This document shows, in pieces, positions 6,271 to 17,194 of a stretch of 43,488 bases of DNA. The notes below the pieces were generated by a model that saw only the letters and a program-made list of their open reading frames with translations, made no database searches and was not told the origin of the DNA. Each line of letters starts with the position of its first letter. Position 1 is the stretch's first letter. Both the position numbers and the translations under genes were made by a program. This DNA is from Syntrophomonadaceae bacterium (GTDB lineage Bacteria > Bacillota > Dethiobacteria > DTU022 > UBA8154). The stretch is taken from NCBI GenBank assembly GCA_003556225.1, contig PWRN01000063.1:68060-111547 (forward strand), written 5' to 3'.

Positions 6271-6606
6271 TTACAAGGCAACATCGCCTCTTTCATTTGT
6301 CCTGATGCGGATGGCATCCTCTACGGGAATGATAAAGATCTTTCCATCGCCGTACTTCCCGGTTTGACATACCTTCTGAATCAACTGCACGATTTCTTCC
6401 ACCCGGTCATCGGAGACGATGGTTTCCATTTTCATCTTGGGCAGCAGGTTTACGTTTACCGGGGTCCCCCGGTACACCTGGGTTTCTCCTTTTTGCGTGC
6501 CAAATCCCTTTACATGGGTAACCGTCATCCCTGTCACAACGCCGTTAAGCGCTTCTTCCAGATCAATCATCTTATTGGGCCGAAAAATGACTTCGATTTT
6601 TTTCAC
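6271..6606 (-). CDS. glnK: P-II family nitrogen regulatory protein (GlnB/GlnK type)
   Basis: 111 residues from a GTG at 6606. The AAAGGAG site lies eight bases before that GTG, inside a longer frame that begins at an ATG at 6624, so the GTG is preferred. P-II signatures are visible: TGMTVTHVKGFGTQKG with the 2-oxoglutarate/ATP-Mg Gln38, the T-loop ETQVYRGTPVNVNLLPK, and the C-terminal TGKYGDGKIFIIPVEDAIRIRT. Tyr45 corresponds to E. coli Tyr46, but the position of the uridylylated Tyr51 is Val, so classical GlnD-type uridylylation is not expected. Family role: a trimeric sensor of 2-oxoglutarate and ATP/ADP that plugs AmtB. It follows amtB by 35 bp in one operon, the standard pairing. Confidence 0.95.
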   Translation of the reverse strand: MKKIEVIFRPNKMIDLEEALNGVVTGMTVTHVKGFGTQKGETQVYRGTPVNVNLLPKMKMETIVSDDRVEEIVQLIQKVCQTGKYGDGKIFIIPVEDAIRIRTNERGDVAL

Positions 6607-6641
6607 GAGGCATACTCCTTTCATGCGATTGTTGATGTCCT

Positions 6642-7982
6642 TTACCTGGGAACAAAATCAGCATAGGCTTCCATGCCGTGTTCTCCGATATCGAGACCGC
6701 GAATCTCTTCTTCACGGGGTACCCGCAGGCCGGCGGTAGACCTGATAATTGCGAAGAGCACCGCAGCTGTTGCGCCAACCCAGGCAATCATGGCCAGCAC
6801 ACCCAGGGCCTGGATCCCCAGCAACCCCGCGCCACCACCGTAGAAAAGACCGCCCTCCGTGGCCAGGAAGCCAACAGCCAGGGTTCCCCAGATGCCGCAA
6901 GTCCCGTGCACAGATACAGCGCCTACGGGGTCATCCACCTTGATTTTCTTATCGATGATTTCCACGGAGAAAACCAGGATGATGCCGCCGATGGCCCCGG
7001 CAATAATCGCCCCGAGCGGAGACAGGTTTCCACAACCCGCTGTAATAGAAACCAGGCCGGCCAAGGCACCGTTTAAAGTCATACTCACGTCGGGCTTACT
7101 GTATTTGAGCCAGGTGACGGTCATGGCCAGGATGGCTCCGGCGGCAGCCGAGAGGTTGGTATTCACCACGACCAGGCCCATATCCGGGTCCAGGGCGCTC
7201 AGGGTGCTTCCCCCGTTAAACCCAAACCAGCCGAACCAGAGGATCAACACCCCCAGGGCCCCCAGGGTGATGCTGTGCCCGGGAATGGCATTGACACTCC
7301 CATCTTCATTGTACTTCCCGGCCCGGGCTCCCAGAAAATAGGCGCCCATAAACGCGGCAATACCCCCGGTGCCGTGGACAACCGTCGATCCGGCAAAATC
7401 AATGAATCCCAGTTCTTCTAAAAAGCCTCCACCCCAGACCCAGTGTCCCACGACCGGGTATATAATCGCCGTGAGAACCACGCTGTAGAGCAGGTAGCCC
7501 GGGAACTTAATGCGTTCCGCCACGGCTCCTGAGACAATGGTGGCGGCGGTAGCTGCAAAAACCGTTTGGAAAATAAGGAACACGTAAATGGGAACATCCA
7601 ATCCCAGGTGGGTAAAATCGTCAGTTAGACTGTTTCCAGAAAAACCTACAAACCCGGCAGCCGTCAGTCCGAACATCAGGGTAAACCCGATCAGCGTATA
7701 GCTGATGCTTCCCATGCTGAAGGTCATGAAATTTTTCATGATAATATTGCCGGCGTTTTTTGCCCGGGTGAACCCTGTTTCCACCATGGCAAACCCGGCG
7801 TGCATGAAAAACACCAGGAAGGCGGCCAGCAGGATCCAGACGGAATCCGCTGCAACCACGAGGTCTTCCAGGGTAGCCGCTGAAGCGGTGCGAACCGGCA
7901 GAAACAAAAGGACCAGGATCATAGCCAGCAGCAGGATCAGCCCTGCCTTCCGAGAATTAAACTGCGCACAAATAGAGATCAC
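6642..7982 (-). CDS. amtB: Ammonium transporter (Amt/AmtB family)
   Basis: 446 residues with an N-terminal signal peptide (LILLLAMILVLLFLPVRTASA) followed by about eleven membrane helices. Amt hallmarks: FFMHAGFAMVETGFTRAKN, the pore-lining His pair in FAGSTVVHGTGG and VSVHGTCGIWGTLAVG, and LGALGVLILWFGWFGFNGGS. The cytoplasmic tail (VPREEEIRGLDIGEHGMEAY) is typical of AmtB proteins controlled by GlnK. The start is GTG at 7982 with AAAGGA about ten bases upstream. It lies between glnA and glnK, separated from glnA by a terminator-like hairpin and a putative ANTAR hairpin, so expression may depend on antitermination. Confidence 0.97.
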   Translation of the reverse strand: MISICAQFNSRKAGLILLLAMILVLLFLPVRTASAATLEDLVVAADSVWILLAAFLVFFMHAGFAMVETGFTRAKNAGNIIMKNFMTFSMGSISYTLIGFTLMFGLTAAGFVGFSGNSLTDDFTHLGLDVPIYVFLIFQTVFAATAATIVSGAVAERIKFPGYLLYSVVLTAIIYPVVGHWVWGGGFLEELGFIDFAGSTVVHGTGGIAAFMGAYFLGARAGKYNEDGSVNAIPGHSITLGALGVLILWFGWFGFNGGSTLSALDPDMGLVVVNTNLSAAAGAILAMTVTWLKYSKPDVSMTLNGALAGLVSITAGCGNLSPLGAIIAGAIGGIILVFSVEIIDKKIKVDDPVGAVSVHGTCGIWGTLAVGFLATEGGLFYGGGAGLLGIQALGVLAMIAWVGATAAVLFAIIRSTAGLRVPREEEIRGLDIGEHGMEAYADFVPR

Positions 7983-8026: not shown

Positions 8027-8065
8027 GGAATCAAGAAGCGCCCAGATATGGTTCTATCTGAGCGC
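8027..8065 (-). terminator. Terminator-like hairpin between glnA and amtB
   Basis: On the minus strand an 11-bp stem with one mismatch (arms 8055-8065 and 8038-8048, six-base loop) is followed by a weak T-rich tail (TTCTTGATT). It sits 35 bases after the glnA stop and about 55 bases before the amtB start. The imperfect T-run suggests partial or conditional termination. Confidence 0.6.
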
Positions 8066-8073
8066 CCTTGCTC
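8060..8073 (-). promoter_or_regulatory. Candidate ANTAR-binding hexaloop hairpin upstream of amtB
   Basis: On the minus strand GAGC-AAGGGC-GCTC forms a 4-bp stem with a six-base loop having A at position 1 and G at position 4, the signature of ANTAR targets. Its 3' arm (8060-8063) and most of its loop share bases with the 5' arm of the downstream terminator-like hairpin (8055-8065), so the two folds exclude each other. A convincing first hairpin (P1) was not found upstream; only a TGT/ACA stem with an eight-base loop is possible. Confidence 0.5.
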
Positions 8074-8099
8074 CATTTGTTACTATTGACATTTCCTGA

Positions 8100-9428
8100 C
8101 TAGAATTTGGCCAGGTACTTGTTGACTTCCCAGGGATGGACCGCCGTGCGGAAGCTGTCCCATTCGAGAATCTTGGCTTCCTGGAATCTCTCCCAGATAT
8201 GGTCTCCTATGGCAGCGATCATGACCGGATCTTGCTCCAGCTCCTGGAGCGCATCGAAAAGGTTCCCCGGCAAGCTGTCGATGTTCCTGTTCTTCCGTTC
8301 CTCTTCAGTCATTTCATAGATGTTCCGCTCTACCGGTTCCGGGGGTGTCAGCTTGCGTTGAATCCCGTCCAGACCGGCCTTGAGCATCACTGCCAGGGCC
8401 AGGTAAGGGTTGCAGGAAGGATCCGGGCTCCTCACCTCCACCCGCGTTCCCAATCCCCTGCGGGCCGGGATACGGATCAGCGGGCTGCGGTTTCGCTGGG
8501 ACCAGGCCACGTAAACCGGCGCTTCGTAGCCGGGAACCAAACGTTTGAAAGAGTTTACCGTGGGGTTCGTGATGGCCGTAAAGGCCTTCACGTGCTCAAT
8601 GATCCCGGCAATGTAATTCAGGGCGGTTTCACTCAATTCATAGGGTGCCTTGGGATCATAGAAAGCGTTTTCTTCCCCGCGAAATAGGGACTGGTGTGTA
8701 TGCATCCCGGATCCGTTGATTCCGAAAATGGGCTTGGGCATAAAACTGGCGTGCAAACCGTGTCGCTGAGCCACGGTGCGAACCACCAGGCGAAAGGTGG
8801 CCAGGCTGTCTGCCGTGGTGAGAGCATCGTTATACTTGAAGTCAATTTCGTGCTGGCCCGCAGCTACTTCGTGATGAGAAGCCTCGACTTCAAAGCCCAT
8901 ATCCGAAAGGGTCAGCACCATGTCCCGGCGGGCATTTTCTCCCAGGTCGGCCGGGGTCATATCAAAATATCCGGCCCGGTCGTGGGTTTTCAAGGTTGGA
9001 AGTCCTTCCTCGTCAGTATGAAAGAGAAAAAATTCTGCTTCCGGCCCGGCATTCATGAAAAAACCCATCTCTTCTGCTTCGGCGATCACGCTTTTCAGCC
9101 GCCCCCGGGGACACCCTGCAAAAGGTGTGCCGTCAGGATTGTAGACATCGCAGATCATGCGGGCGACGGCGCCTTCCTTGGGCCGCCAGGGAAAGGTTAC
9201 GAAAGTATCCAGGTCCGGCCTCAAGTTCATGTCCGATTCTTCGATGCGTACAAACCCTTCAATGGATGATCCGTCGAATTGGATTTCTCCTTCCAGTGCC
9301 TTGGACAGCTGATCTGCCGGAATGGCGATGTTTTTCAAAACCCCGAAAATGTCTGTAAACTGGAGACGGATAAATTTAACATTCTGCTCCTCCACCATGC
9401 GAATAATGTCTTCGTTGCCGTACCCCAT
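8100..9428 (-). CDS. glnA: Type I (alpha) glutamine synthetase
   Basis: 442 residues from an ATG at 9428. AAGGAG sits nine bases upstream, while an in-frame TTG at 9437 abuts that site and is therefore rejected. Catalytic and binding blocks: [84 protein letters not shown] and [26 protein letters not shown]. The length and the Arg in GFVRIEESD, which matches the feedback-inhibition Arg62 of Bacillus GlnA, place it in the GSI-alpha group, which is not adenylylated. It makes glutamine from glutamate, ammonia and ATP. It is preceded by an intrinsic terminator and a dual hairpin just after an ANTAR gene, so read-through control is likely. Confidence 0.98.
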
Positions 9429-9460: not shown

Positions 9461-9503
9461 AACAAAAAGCGCCCCAAGGGTTGTAAAAACCCTTTTGGGG
9501 CGC
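9461..9503 (-). terminator. Intrinsic terminator upstream of glnA (attenuator)
   Basis: Minus strand: 5' arm 9503-9488, five-base loop, 3' arm 9482-9469, then TTTTTGTT (9468-9461). The stem has 14 pairs with a two-base bulge. It lies only about 33 bases before the glnA ATG and after the ANTAR gene stop (9585), so it stops transcription before glnA unless disrupted. Confidence 0.92.
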
Positions 9504-9538
9504 CATTGCCCACAAGTTTTGTATGCTGTTCCCGCAGC
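9495..9538 (-). promoter_or_regulatory. Putative ANTAR dual-hairpin antiterminator (P1-P2) in the glnA leader
   Basis: Read on the minus strand. P1 (9538-9525) is GCTG-CGGGAA-CAGC: 4 bp, hexaloop with G at position 4 but C instead of A at position 1. A nine-base linker follows. P2 (9515-9495) has stem GGGC/GCCC extended by TTG/CAA around a one-base bulge, with hexaloop AATGGC (A1, G4). The P2 3' arm (9495-9501) is part of the 5' arm of the glnA terminator (9488-9503), so P2 and the terminator are mutually exclusive. This is the known layout of EutV/NasR-type targets, and an ANTAR protein is encoded directly upstream. Confidence 0.75.
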
Positions 9539-9584: not shown

Positions 9585-10160
9585 CTAGCGCAAAACTCTA
9601 CCGGTGATGATGCTGTCCGCATAATCTCTCAGCGGCAGACGTAAATCCATACTTTTTTTCTGCAAAAACCGGTATGCGCCTTGTTCATCCAGGGAAAGTT
9701 CTTTCATGAGAATACCCTTGGCCCTTTCAATCACCGTCCGCGATTGGAGCTTGGAACGGAGGGACCTGAGTTCCTCCAGCAAGCGTTTGCGGCGGACATA
9801 TTCCAGGTAAAGCACCTTGACCACGGCCAACAGCACGTTGCTTTCCACGGGTAATGTCATGACCAGGGGAGTCTCATCCCGGTTGTTGTCCCATGCAATT
9901 CCCGGTACGGTCTTCCTGGAAACCAGCAGTAATGCCGCCAGGGCTTCTTGATCAATCGTGTTTACGGTCCCGTGAACGTCGCCTGGTAAGTCCAAACTCA
10001 TGATCACCAGTTGCGGTTGCACCCGTTGTAGGGTTCGCAGCAGGTGGGAACAGTCCTGGTCCTGGCCTTGACAGCGAAAGCCTGCGGTGGAAAGAGCGGA
10101 TATAATGGCCCTGCCATCAGCGATGTCGGTGATGCCCAGGCAGTATTCCAGTTCCTTCAA
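9585..10160 (-). CDS. Response-regulator-like protein with C-terminal ANTAR RNA-binding domain
   Basis: 191 residues. Residues 1-115 resemble a receiver domain (LVIMSLDLPG, Asp57 as candidate phospho-acceptor), a coiled-coil linker spans about 118-140, and residues about 130-185 are an ANTAR domain (TVIERAKGILMKELSLDEQGAYRFLQKKSMDLRLPLRDYA). The receiver is degenerate: only one acidic residue (Asp12) stands in the usual acidic pair, and the conserved Lys of the KP motif is Leu103 (MTLPVE). ANTAR proteins bind tandem hexaloop hairpins and prevent termination; such sites are seen just downstream. The start is TTG at 10160 with GGGGAGG nine bases before it. A consensus promoter precedes the gene, and no histidine kinase is nearby. 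Confidence 0.93.
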   Translation of the reverse strand: MKELEYCLGITDIADGRAIISALSTAGFRCQGQDQDCSHLLRTLQRVQPQLVIMSLDLPGDVHGTVNTIDQEALAALLLVSRKTVPGIAWDNNRDETPLVMTLPVESNVLLAVVKVLYLEYVRRKRLLEELRSLRSKLQSRTVIERAKGILMKELSLDEQGAYRFLQKKSMDLRLPLRDYADSIITGRVLR

Positions 10161-10193: not shown

Positions 10194-10222
10194 ATCATAC
10201 CCTGGATTTTCTCTCCTGTCAA
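10194..10222 (-). promoter_or_regulatory. Consensus sigma-A promoter of the ANTAR gene
   Basis: Minus strand: TTGACA (10222-10217), 17-bp spacer, TATGAT (10199-10194). The predicted transcript start is near 10187, 27 bases before the TTG start codon. It lets the ANTAR gene, and glnA by read-through, be transcribed independently of the GOGAT-nadE genes upstream. Confidence 0.85.
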
Positions 10223-10241
10223 TACCTTATGGAAAAACATT

Positions 10242-11984
10242 TCATATTACGGAAGTGCTTCGCGCGATGGGCATTCTTCTCCCGCTGCCAAATGCCCGGG
10301 TAGTTACCCGCAACCCAGGGGCGGCTTGAAACCTCTTATATTCGGCATGATCAACCTTTTCTATAATGTCTTTAACCGTTTTACGGCGAAAGCCCGCGGC
10401 GACGATTTCTTCGAGATGACAATTTTCTTCGATATACATGTGCAAAACGCGGTCAAGTATTTCATATGGTGGAAGTGAGTCCCGGTCTTTTTGGTCGGGC
10501 CGCAGTTCTGCCGAGGGGGCCTTGGCAATAACTCCCCGGGGAACAACTTCACCTTCTTTTTTTTCATTCATATATACTGCCAGCTGGTAAACCATGGTTT
10601 TCGGCACATCCGCCAGCAAGGCGAGCCCCCCGGACATATCTCCGTAAAGGGTGCAGTATCCCACGGCCAATTCTGACTTGTTCCCGGTTGTTAGAACCAT
10701 GCGCCGTTCCCGGTTAGAGATAAACATTAAAATATTTCCACGAATGCGGGCCTGGATGTTTTCCTCGGCCAGGTCCAGCCGGGGCAGTCTTTTCCCGTTC
10801 ATCAAATCCAAAAAGGCAGCAAAGGGCTTTTCAATGGGAATCACCCTTGTTTTCATGCCCAGGTTTTTCGCCAGTTCCAGAGAATCCTTGATGCTGTCCC
10901 TGGAGGAATAGCGGGAAGGCATCAGCACGCCCAGGACCTGTTCCGCCCCCAGGGCGGTTACCGCCAGGGCGGCGGTCACGGCCGAATCGATCCCCCCGCT
11001 CAAACCGATCACAACCCGGTCAAACCCGGTTTTTTTCAGGTAGTCCCGCAATCCCAGGACCAGGGCCTGGTGGAGATGATCCGCTCCCTCTGCACCGGGG
11101 GCTTCGGGGTGGGCATCCAGTCGCCACGGAGTAGGAGCGGCCAGGCCTGCATGCGCCTTAGAGCTCGCTCCTCCCACGGGTTTTCGGTTCTCCACCGGAG
11201 AAACAAGCCGGGGCCGGCCTTCAGTCAAAGCGAAATAACGCACGCCTTCCTGGAAGCAAGGAGCCTGGCAGGCAATTTCCCCATGCTCCGTTACAACCAG
11301 GCTGCTGCCATCAAAGATCAGCTCATCGTTACCACCTACCTGGTTGACATAAACAAGCGGAAGCCTGTACTTTTTCGCCAGGGCAGAGAGCATCTTGCTC
11401 CTTTCCCGGACCTTTCCCAGGTGATAGGGGGAAGCGGAAATATTGACCAGCAGTTCGGCGCCCTGGCTGCAGAGTTCTTCCACGGGATCCTGGTCATAAA
11501 GGCGACGCTCCCAGTAATCCTTGTCATTCCATATATCCTCGCAGACAGTCACCGCGATCTTTTTTCCCGCCAGGTCCAGCACATTGCGCCGGGGAGCAGG
11601 GGCAAAATAGCGATTTTCATCGAAGACATCGTAATTGGGCAGCAAAGTTTTCTGGTGAATGGAAAAGATCTCCATGTTCTTCATCACCAGGGCCGCGTTA
11701 TAAAGCTTTTCTTCCTCCGCCGCTGTACGCCAGGGTGATCCCATGATTACGGTGATATCGGCTGTCGCCGGAAGAATTTCCTGCAGCGTGATTCTTTCCA
11801 CTTCCTGCAGAAAGGCTTGGTACAACAGCAAATCGCGTGGAGGATAGCCGGTCACGGCCAGCTCGGGGAAAACGACCAGTTCCACACCATCATCGCGACA
11901 CTGTTCGATGATCCGGATCATCTTCTCGGCATTGTTGTGCAAAGCTCCAATGGTGGGGTTCACTTGGGCCAGGGCAATGATCAC
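10242..11984 (-). CDS. nadE: Glutamine-dependent NAD+ synthetase
   Basis: About 580 residues. The N-terminal nitrilase-type glutaminase carries the Glu (VVFPELAVTGYPPRDLLL), Lys (HQKTLLPNYDVF) and Cys (VTVCEDIWND) of its catalytic triad. The C-terminal synthetase has the PP-loop GLSGGIDSAVTAALA and the TTGNKSELAVGYCTLYGDMSGGLALLADVPKT block. It converts deamido-NAD, ATP and glutamine to NAD. A proline/alanine/glycine-rich linker of about 40 residues joins the domains (coded near 11060-11190). The frame is open to 12116, but family alignment (IIALAQVNPTIG) and a GAGGGTGAG site favour GTG at 11984 (or GTG at 11993), so it does not overlap the gene upstream. As a glutamine consumer it fits the nitrogen block. 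Confidence 0.95.
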   Translation of the reverse strand: MIIALAQVNPTIGALHNNAEKMIRIIEQCRDDGVELVVFPELAVTGYPPRDLLLYQAFLQEVERITLQEILPATADITVIMGSPWRTAAEEEKLYNAALVMKNMEIFSIHQKTLLPNYDVFDENRYFAPAPRRNVLDLAGKKIAVTVCEDIWNDKDYWERRLYDQDPVEELCSQGAELLVNISASPYHLGKVRERSKMLSALAKKYRLPLVYVNQVGGNDELIFDGSSLVVTEHGEIACQAPCFQEGVRYFALTEGRPRLVSPVENRKPVGGASSKAHAGLAAPTPWRLDAHPEAPGAEGADHLHQALVLGLRDYLKKTGFDRVVIGLSGGIDSAVTAALAVTALGAEQVLGVLMPSRYSSRDSIKDSLELAKNLGMKTRVIPIEKPFAAFLDLMNGKRLPRLDLAEENIQARIRGNILMFISNRERRMVLTTGNKSELAVGYCTLYGDMSGGLALLADVPKTMVYQLAVYMNEKKEGEVVPRGVIAKAPSAELRPDQKDRDSLPPYEILDRVLHMYIEENCHLEEIVAAGFRRKTVKDIIEKVDHAEYKRFQAAPGLRVTTRAFGSGRRMPIARSTSVI

Positions 11985-15842: not shown

Positions 15843-16937
15843 CTATCGTGTAATGGGTGCTTCCGCTTCCCGGGACTCGGCGCCATGGTCCAGGTTTACT
15901 ATACAAGGCTGCCCTGCCCTGGGCGTAATCACCCGTTCCAAGCCCGGCTCCATTTCATAGAGGGCGGAAACTTCGCTGGCAAAATAAGAGTAATCATCCG
16001 CCAATCCTACTGTCATGGGGCGCAGCTTGGTGTTGTCCGTGATACTGAACATGCCATTATCAAAACCTGCCAGGATGGCAAAAGGCCCGTTGAGCATGGC
16101 TGATTCGTAAATGATCTTCAAGGCCAGAAGTCGCTGCTCCACCTCCGGGTCCTTTTCACGCTCCACCGAAGCCCAGTAGGGCGGCGCCAAAGCCAGGGTG
16201 GCCTCTTCAATGGTCAAACCGTGTCGGCGAATCAGCAGGTCCAGGAGATAGGCAACCACTTCGCTGTCCGTCTGCATGCGGCACTTATACCCGAATCCTT
16301 CCAGGTAACGGCGGTTGATCCCGTACGAGGATATTTCCCCGTTGTGGACGATCGACCAGCCCAGCAAGTTGAACGGGTGTGCCCCACCCCACCAACCTGG
16401 TGTATTCGTTGGAAAGCGGTTGTGGGCCAACCAGGTATATCCCTCATAGTCATCCAGGCAAAAGAAATCATAAATGTCTGCCGGTGTGCCTCCCCCCTTG
16501 AAAACACCCACGTCTTTCCCGCTGGAAAAGACGAAGGCCCCCTCCTGCCGATCATTAATGGCCATGACCTTTTCGATCGTATAGTTGTCCTCACTGACCG
16601 GAACGGGAAATGCCTTGATGATCGACTCCTTGGGTTCCACAAAAAAGCGTTTGACCAGGGGATGATCATGAATCACACGGTTCCAAATAGGGATGTCTTC
16701 CATGTGCTGGATCACAAAATGTTCCTGCAGGTAAGATTGGACCTCCAGCATACTTTCTTCATCCATGGCCATCACGTGGATCGCGTACAGATCTGCGTAA
16801 TCCGGGTATATCCCGTAAGCAGCGTAACCTGCCCCTAACCCGTTGCCCCGGTCATTTTGCAGCACGATCCCCTGTTTAATCCGTTTACCGTTTTCTTTGA
16901 CACGCTGGCGGCTAATCAGTCCGGCAATTCCACACAT
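15843..16937 (-). CDS. Glutamate synthase glutamine amidotransferase subunit (class II GATase, GltB1)
   Basis: 364 residues beginning MCGIAGLISRQ, with the N-terminal Cys2 nucleophile of class II (Ntn) glutamine amidotransferases. Other landmarks are LAHNRFPTNTPGWWGGAHPFNLLGWSIVHNGEISSYGINRRYLEG, carrying the glutamine-binding Arg and the oxyanion Asn-Gly, then MQTDSEVVAYLLDLL and LNGPFAILAGF. It releases ammonia from glutamine for the synthase subunit downstream. Typical GltB is one polypeptide of about 1500 residues; here the domains are separate genes in the archaeal order GATase-FMN-GXGXG. It is first in the operon, with a near-consensus promoter about 165 bp upstream. Confidence 0.94.
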   Translation of the reverse strand: MCGIAGLISRQRVKENGKRIKQGIVLQNDRGNGLGAGYAAYGIYPDYADLYAIHVMAMDEESMLEVQSYLQEHFVIQHMEDIPIWNRVIHDHPLVKRFFVEPKESIIKAFPVPVSEDNYTIEKVMAINDRQEGAFVFSSGKDVGVFKGGGTPADIYDFFCLDDYEGYTWLAHNRFPTNTPGWWGGAHPFNLLGWSIVHNGEISSYGINRRYLEGFGYKCRMQTDSEVVAYLLDLLIRRHGLTIEEATLALAPPYWASVEREKDPEVEQRLLALKIIYESAMLNGPFAILAGFDNGMFSITDNTKLRPMTVGLADDYSYFASEVSALYEMEPGLERVITPRAGQPCIVNLDHGAESREAEAPITR

Positions 16938-17071
16938 GGATTATGCACCCCTTTCCTTTTACAGTCCCTTCTCCCGAGATCGGGTCTTATTTAAAATGCT
17001 ATTCCATATTGCGAAAACTAAAAACGGGTAAAAAAAATGACCGTCTTTGCTATAATCATGGAATAAAGCAT

Positions 17072-17104
17072 AAAAATAGCTACCTGCTGCACTCCAGGTA
17101 GCTA
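17072..17104 (-). terminator. Intrinsic terminator downstream of the ferritin gene
   Basis: Minus strand: 10-bp perfect stem (17104-17095 with 17086-17077, eight-base loop) followed by TTTTT (17076-17072). It lies 91 bases after the ferritin stop. The gltB1 promoter start point (about 17099) falls inside its 5' arm, so transcripts begun there cannot form the full stem. Confidence 0.85.
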
Positions 17105-17105
17105 A

Positions 17106-17134
17106 ATTGTAACATGCCTTTTTTGAAATGTCAA
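17106..17134 (-). promoter_or_regulatory. Consensus sigma-A promoter for the split glutamate synthase operon
   Basis: Minus strand: TTGACA (17134-17129), 17-bp spacer, TACAAT (17111-17106). The predicted start is near 17099, giving a leader of about 160 nt before the gltB1 ATG at 16937. Confidence 0.85.
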
Positions 17135-17194
17135 TATTGTGGAATAAACTTTTACCATGTGGAATCTTAACGTCGGGGGGACATCCCCGGGTGG

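Follow-up and report, generated by a model that had tools for sequence, protein, structure and literature searches.

A Probable Single-Hexaloop ANTAR Attenuator Upstream of glnA in the Dethiobacter Lineage

The leader of the glnA gene in the window, i.e., the whole stretch of 43,488 nucleotides that was analyzed, is probably an ANTAR-controlled transcription attenuator with a single hexaloop hairpin. A probability of roughly 0.77 is given to this reading. Sequence comparison lends good support to transcription attenuation of glnA under ANTAR control, and the attenuator variety that lacks the upstream hairpin, P1, is, as judged from the compared leaders, characteristic of the order, the Dethiobacter lineage.

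The glnA Locus and Its Leader

An ANTAR gene, glnA, amt, and a P-II gene are found on the minus strand of the window. The features of this locus are:

10194..10222 (-), predicted promoter of the ANTAR gene, sigma-70-like, TTGACA-17-TATGAT (consensus match read from the sequence)
9585..10160 (-), ANTAR gene (PF03861, E 1.8e-19)
9525..9538 (-), P1 of the sequence-only reading, GCTG-CGGGAA-CAGC, 14 nt, probably no functional part (unconserved, outside the predicted fold)
9498..9511 (-), P2, single antiterminator hexaloop hairpin GGGC-AATGGC-GCCC (31/31 leaders, invariant loop bases, stem covariation)
9469..9503 (-), intrinsic terminator stem-loop GCGCCCC..GGGGCGC, mutually exclusive with P2 (-23.6 kcal/mol; covariation)
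9464..9468 (-), U tract of the terminator, UUUUU (from the sequence)
8100..9428 (-), glnA, type I glutamine synthetase (PF00120/PF03951; TIGR00653 above cut-off)
6642..7982 (-), amt, ammonium transporter (PF00909, TIGR00836)
6271..6624 (-), gene for a P-II nitrogen regulatory protein, 3' of amt (PF00543)

As an earlier, sequence-only reading of this DNA had it, the ANTAR gene lies directly upstream of glnA on the same strand (glnA ATG at 9428(-)), and sequences capable of forming two hairpins, at 9525-9538 and 9495-9515, are indeed present with a gap of nine bases. The P2 hexaloop itself occupies 9502-9507, and the hairpin can be extended to 9495-9515 through UUG/CAA around a bulged U. Its loop, AATGGC, has the A at position 1 (A1) and the G at position 4 (G4) that had been reported for it, and its 3' arm is, again in agreement with that reading, shared with a strong terminator, which ends ~33 nt upstream of the glnA ATG. 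The fold of the glnA leader is more stable than those of shuffled sequences (z -2.4). Scans of Rfam, both at the gathering thresholds and by E-value, yielded nothing relevant and no family matching the leader. The pattern GGCAANGRCGCC has eight matches across the own genome vs. five in the control, and only the one at glnA is followed by a terminator.

The host genome is a 1.8-Mb draft in which a single ANTAR gene was found, the one adjacent to glnA. A scan of named genomes with an ANTAR profile, for which a 12-sequence alignment was used (a 21-sequence version was too diverse), identified Dethiobacter and metagenome assemblies labeled "Syntrophomonadaceae" as the named relatives.

Conservation of P2 and the Terminator

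Within the order, 31 glnA leaders linked to ANTAR were readable: 12 from the window's own family (f1), which are ANTAR-glnA intergenic regions, and 19 distinct ones from f2, where the gene order is leader-glnA-ANTAR. The alignment of ANTAR-glnA intergenic regions that the sequence-only reading had proposed revealed P2 plus terminator in 12/12 f1 regions; together with the f2 leaders (19/19), a P2 overlapping the 5' arm of the terminator is present in 31/31. The hairpin consensus in f1 and f2 is [GA][AG]GC-AANGRY-GCYY. In the loop, A1, A2, and G4 are found in every leader and position 3 can be any base, whilst positions 5 and 6 are conserved because they are paired in the terminator.

Both helices are borne out by comparison. 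At three positions, both partners of a P2 pair have been exchanged, e.g., A-U for G-C (12 cells vs. 3.2 in shuffled alignments), and the terminator helix, which is paired in 96% of the cells, covaries as well. The compensatory changes in both helices exceed those obtained with shuffles and with slid partners. In f2, the 5' arm of P2 has A for G where the 3' arm has U for C, whilst the distal arm of the terminator remains G, tolerating G-U pairs. This indicates that the P2 helix is selected for itself, i.e., as a helix in its own right.

Association with ANTAR Genes

A covariance search, also proposed earlier, tied the element to genomes with ANTAR genes. A covariance model, R1, was built from the 31 leaders and used with a cut-off of E<=1e-3. 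It matched in 37/41 ANTAR-encoding genomes of the order vs. 0/30 genomes without ANTAR; since the model-building sequences match by construction, the 0/30 is the informative half, and it is partly due to joint loss of glnA and ANTAR. In the four ANTAR genomes lacking a match, the glnA start is past the contig end or glnA is absent from the fetched stretch. Six ANTAR-less genomes have a typed glnA with a readable leader, and the element is absent in five of them. In the sixth, G013, where an ANTAR gene was not detected, a variant hairpin with the loop ACAGGT is retained. Another genome in which an ANTAR gene was not detected, G067, carries a weak element of the glutamate-synthase (GOGAT) type. 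Across 398 genomes sampled from the whole phylum, the R1 model had nine matches outside the class, every one of them in a genome that encodes ANTAR (background 202/398). In other Firmicutes, the model finds obvious tandem hexaloops, some of them before ANTAR genes. Thus, of the earlier claim that the protein encoded upstream governs glnA transcription, the link between attenuator and ANTAR gene is upheld by comparison, and an action of the protein on the leader is strongly suggested, because its gene is the sole ANTAR gene in the draft genome.

The ANTAR Protein

The protein encoded at 9585..10160(-) consists, according to Pfam, phmmer, AlphaFold, and Foldseek, of a degenerate (pseudo-)receiver domain, a coiled coil, and a C-terminal ANTAR domain (PF03861, 69.7 bits vs. 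a cut-off of 27.3). In phmmer, it matches EutV (6wsh) with an E of 2e-11. In its AlphaFold model (pLDDT 88.8), which superseded an earlier, weak structure model (pLDDT 61.7), the N-terminal half adopts a receiver fold, and the whole chain resembles EutV (TM 0.83) and AmiR (TM 0.75) in Foldseek. At the position aligned with the phospho-acceptor Asp of EutV, the protein has a Ser, and its relatives have D, E, or S. Thus, it lacks the phospho-acceptor Asp of an ANTAR two-component response regulator, and the Ser fits a pseudo-receiver, as expected. Instead of being phosphorylated, it therefore probably receives its signal, like AmiR, through contact with a protein or ligand.

The RNA-contact residues R142, Y164, and M172 of EutV correspond to R141, Y163, and M171 here and are (nearly) invariant. 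Lys143 of EutV has no counterpart in f1 and is mostly retained in f2. The loss of this residue was considered as the cause of single-hexaloop use and was rejected: as it is missing in f1 yet mostly kept in f2, it does not provide a common cause.

One Hairpin or Two

The sequence-only reading had described the leader as a dual-hairpin antiterminator. Its antiterminator part stands, and its dual part is abandoned: P1 is unconserved, and the predicted f2 promoter leaves no space for it. The leader has the features of a dual-hexaloop ANTAR-target RNA as regards the A1/G4 loop of P2, the arm shared with the terminator, and the ANTAR gene in the same genome; it lacks the upstream P1, i.e., an A1/G4 hexaloop at short distance, as the window P1 has a loop with C1 and G4. 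Could this hairpin be a divergent but functional recruitment hairpin, which would make the leader a canonical tandem element? The spacing is right, the stem has four base pairs, the loop has G4, the sister families f8 and f6 sometimes have a G at position 1 of P1, and tandem hexaloops are the rule in other Firmicutes. Nevertheless, this is unlikely. P1 is not formed in the minimum-energy fold, where its stretch pairs in a different stem. The corresponding sequence of the congener L007, TCTG-CGGAAA-CCGC, retains neither the stem nor G4. Moreover, upstream hexaloops occur across the order at chance level. R1/G4 hexaloops (R at position 1) with a stem of >=4 bp, <=30 nt upstream of P2, are found in 3/31 glnA leaders vs. 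1.5 expected; two of the three overlap the -35 box, and only the one in L012 (f1), AAAGGG-ATAGTC-TCCTTT at 6 nt from P2, is a credible P1. With any base at position 1, G4 hexaloops of >=4 bp were found upstream of P2 in 5/31 leaders vs. ~2.5 expected, and a search for any hexaloop in the 31 leaders also gave no conserved P1 beyond chance. Upstream of the P2-type hairpin of the amt and GOGAT elements described below, 1/13 had an R1/G4 hexaloop of >=4 bp vs. 0.5 expected. Thus, of the two hexaloops, P2 is conserved in the homologous loci (31/31) and P1 is not.

The same test does detect P1 elsewhere, i.e., in 4/4 glnA leaders of f8, 6/6 leaders of ANTAR genes in f6, and 5/9 matches in other families, where a sixth case (L167) has a long upstream stem containing two G-U pairs. 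Therefore, P1 is missing in the order rather than overlooked. Within the same f6 genomes (e.g., L149), the glnA leaders have one hexaloop and the ANTAR leaders two. In f2, a sigma-70 promoter close to consensus, TTGACA-17-TATAAT-like with >=10/12 matches, was recognized in 19/20 leaders, and the end of the -10 box is 6-7 nt upstream of the P2 stem in 12 leaders. This puts the predicted start at or just before P2, so that there is no room for P1, and the predicted RNA would begin at the P2 hairpin.

An attenuator with P2 as antiterminator might also be read by a metabolite or by another RNA-binding protein. The binding of the leader by an ANTAR protein is, after all, deduced from sequences, and G013 and G067 carry element-like sequences with no ANTAR gene detected. 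Against such a reader, which we regard as very unlikely, speak the co-occurrence with ANTAR genes (37/41 vs. 0/30), the invariance of the A1/G4 hexaloop, the recognition by the same model of tandem ANTAR elements, some before ANTAR genes, and the lack of a matching Rfam family. Finally, a second hexaloop could come from elsewhere, either in trans from a different RNA or from the top of the terminator, 3' of P2. In EutV crystals, one dimer is indeed bound to hexaloops of two RNA molecules (PMC8934654), but the authors of that structure considered it improbable that binding in trans would happen within the time that transcription allows. The top of the terminator was inspected as a candidate and dismissed: its inner loops, of 3-12 nt, vary in size and sequence and contain no conserved A1/G4 hexaloop. 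Either source is, hence, hardly credible.

Proposed Mechanism

On the single-hexaloop reading, the 3' arm of P2 would, when no active ANTAR protein is present, pair into the terminator, and RNA polymerase would halt before glnA. Active ANTAR protein, probably under nitrogen limitation, would bind the A1/G4 hexaloop at 9502-9507 and stabilize P2. With P2 held, the terminator could not use its complete 5' arm, and transcription would proceed into glnA, whilst the copy at amt would gate amt and P-II. We infer binding, antitermination, the direction of regulation, and the nitrogen signal, as well as the promoter positions, from the sequences. Several points speak against this reading: EutV depends on both hexaloops in vivo, NasR has weak affinity for P2 by itself, L012 carries a P1 that looks credible, element-like sequences occur in G013 and G067 with no ANTAR gene detected, and Lys143 of EutV is not conserved in f1. 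A tentative extension, to which we give somewhat less than even odds, is that the whole order uses co-transcriptional ANTAR antitermination with one hexaloop. In f2, where the mRNA would start with the hairpin itself, a slow first phase of elongation close to the promoter may take the place of the recruitment hairpin P1.

The amt Element and Further Candidate Targets

An element at 8038-8074(-), between glnA and amt, was missed by the sequence-only reading. It comprises:

8060..8073 (-), hexaloop hairpin GAGC-AAGGGC-GCTC upstream of amt, again a single one (R1 model match 27.7 bits, E 0.012)
8038..8065 (-), terminator-like stem that shares bases with this hairpin (-17.6 kcal/mol)
8033-8037 (-), weak U-rich stretch after the terminator-like stem

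In relatives, equivalents are located either in the glnA-amt gap or in front of amt. At L124:740-865 (G065), two complete single-hexaloop attenuators are arranged in series before amt, and in several f1 genomes (L121-L123, L126, L130, L131), an element precedes a split glutamate-synthase glutaminase gene.

The f6 ANTAR genes (L143, L149, L150, L154) are themselves preceded by a canonical tandem-hexaloop attenuator, which suggests that they are autoregulated. In other Firmicutes, R1 matches are found before an asparagine-synthase-like gene, a purine-type permease gene, and an ammonium transporter gene (L163, L166, L169); the one at the permease (L166) is likewise without P1.

In the window, the start of the MCGIAGLI glutaminase gene is near 16937. 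In the region upstream of it, at about 17090-17150(-), a predicted promoter, TTGACA-17-TACAAT, is directly followed by a terminator-like hairpin, AGCTACCTG..CAGGTAGCT-ATTTTT, with no ANTAR hexaloop. A partly palindromic motif, TTYCRYAATATGRAA, is located at 10240-10254(-) and 17002-17016(-); the first site precedes the ANTAR promoter and the second the split glutamate-synthase gene. With <=2 mismatches, it has six matches in the window vs. 0.9 expected, and similar sites exist in some relatives. Perhaps, it is the site of a DNA-binding regulator.

Comparison with Known Systems

The dual-hexaloop ANTAR target was defined by Ramesh et al. (2012, PMC3369931), and EutV needs both hairpins in vivo. 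As P-II, ammonium transporter, and glutamine/glutamate synthase genes were already among the targets predicted in that study, an ANTAR switch before glnA is not a new idea. In the EutV-RNA structure (PMC8934654, 2022), the dimer contacts one hexaloop per RNA and cannot hold both of one RNA; P1 was named the recruitment hairpin and the minimal target was redefined as one hexaloop. That paper asks why two hexaloops are needed, calls for bioinformatics on single-hexaloop sites, a term that occurs in this paper only among those searched on ANTAR targets, and proposes that such sites could occur in settings free of the time limit that a transcribing polymerase sets. The conserved single-hexaloop sites reported here are at intrinsic terminators, where this limit applies. 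Most likely, these sites are ANTAR antiterminators for which one hexaloop suffices. The cited ANTAR-RNA surveys required two stem-loops, as did the actinobacterial one (PMC8164766), and could not have detected them, which suggests that the reach of ANTAR control has been underestimated.

In Desulfotomaculum and Pelobacter, the ANTAR targets predicted for the nitrogen regulon (PMC3369931) resemble the present ones in that they concern glutamine/glutamate synthase, ammonium transporter, and P-II genes; they were found with a dual-hairpin model, and single-hexaloop sites were therefore beyond reach. The eut antiterminator of Enterococcus faecalis is alike in its EutV protein, which combines a receiver-like domain, a coiled coil, and ANTAR (TM 0.83), and in its A1/G4 hexaloop with a 3' arm overlapping the terminator. 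Unlike in eut, the P1 recruitment hairpin is absent here, the phospho-Asp is replaced by Ser, the targets are nitrogen-assimilation genes, and no kinase gene was seen in the nitrogen cluster. The leaders of amiE, controlled by AmiR, and nasF, controlled by NasR, share antitermination at a leader terminator, and AmiR also has a pseudo-receiver. In contrast to the glnA leader, both have P1 and P2, and their inputs are AmiC-amide and nitrate, respectively; NasR binds P2 alone weakly, at about 12 uM (PMC7496416). With one hairpin where the textbook systems have two, the order seems to offer a natural test of the purpose of the second hairpin, and with the tandem relatives in the sister families as built-in controls, the role of P1 is directly testable.
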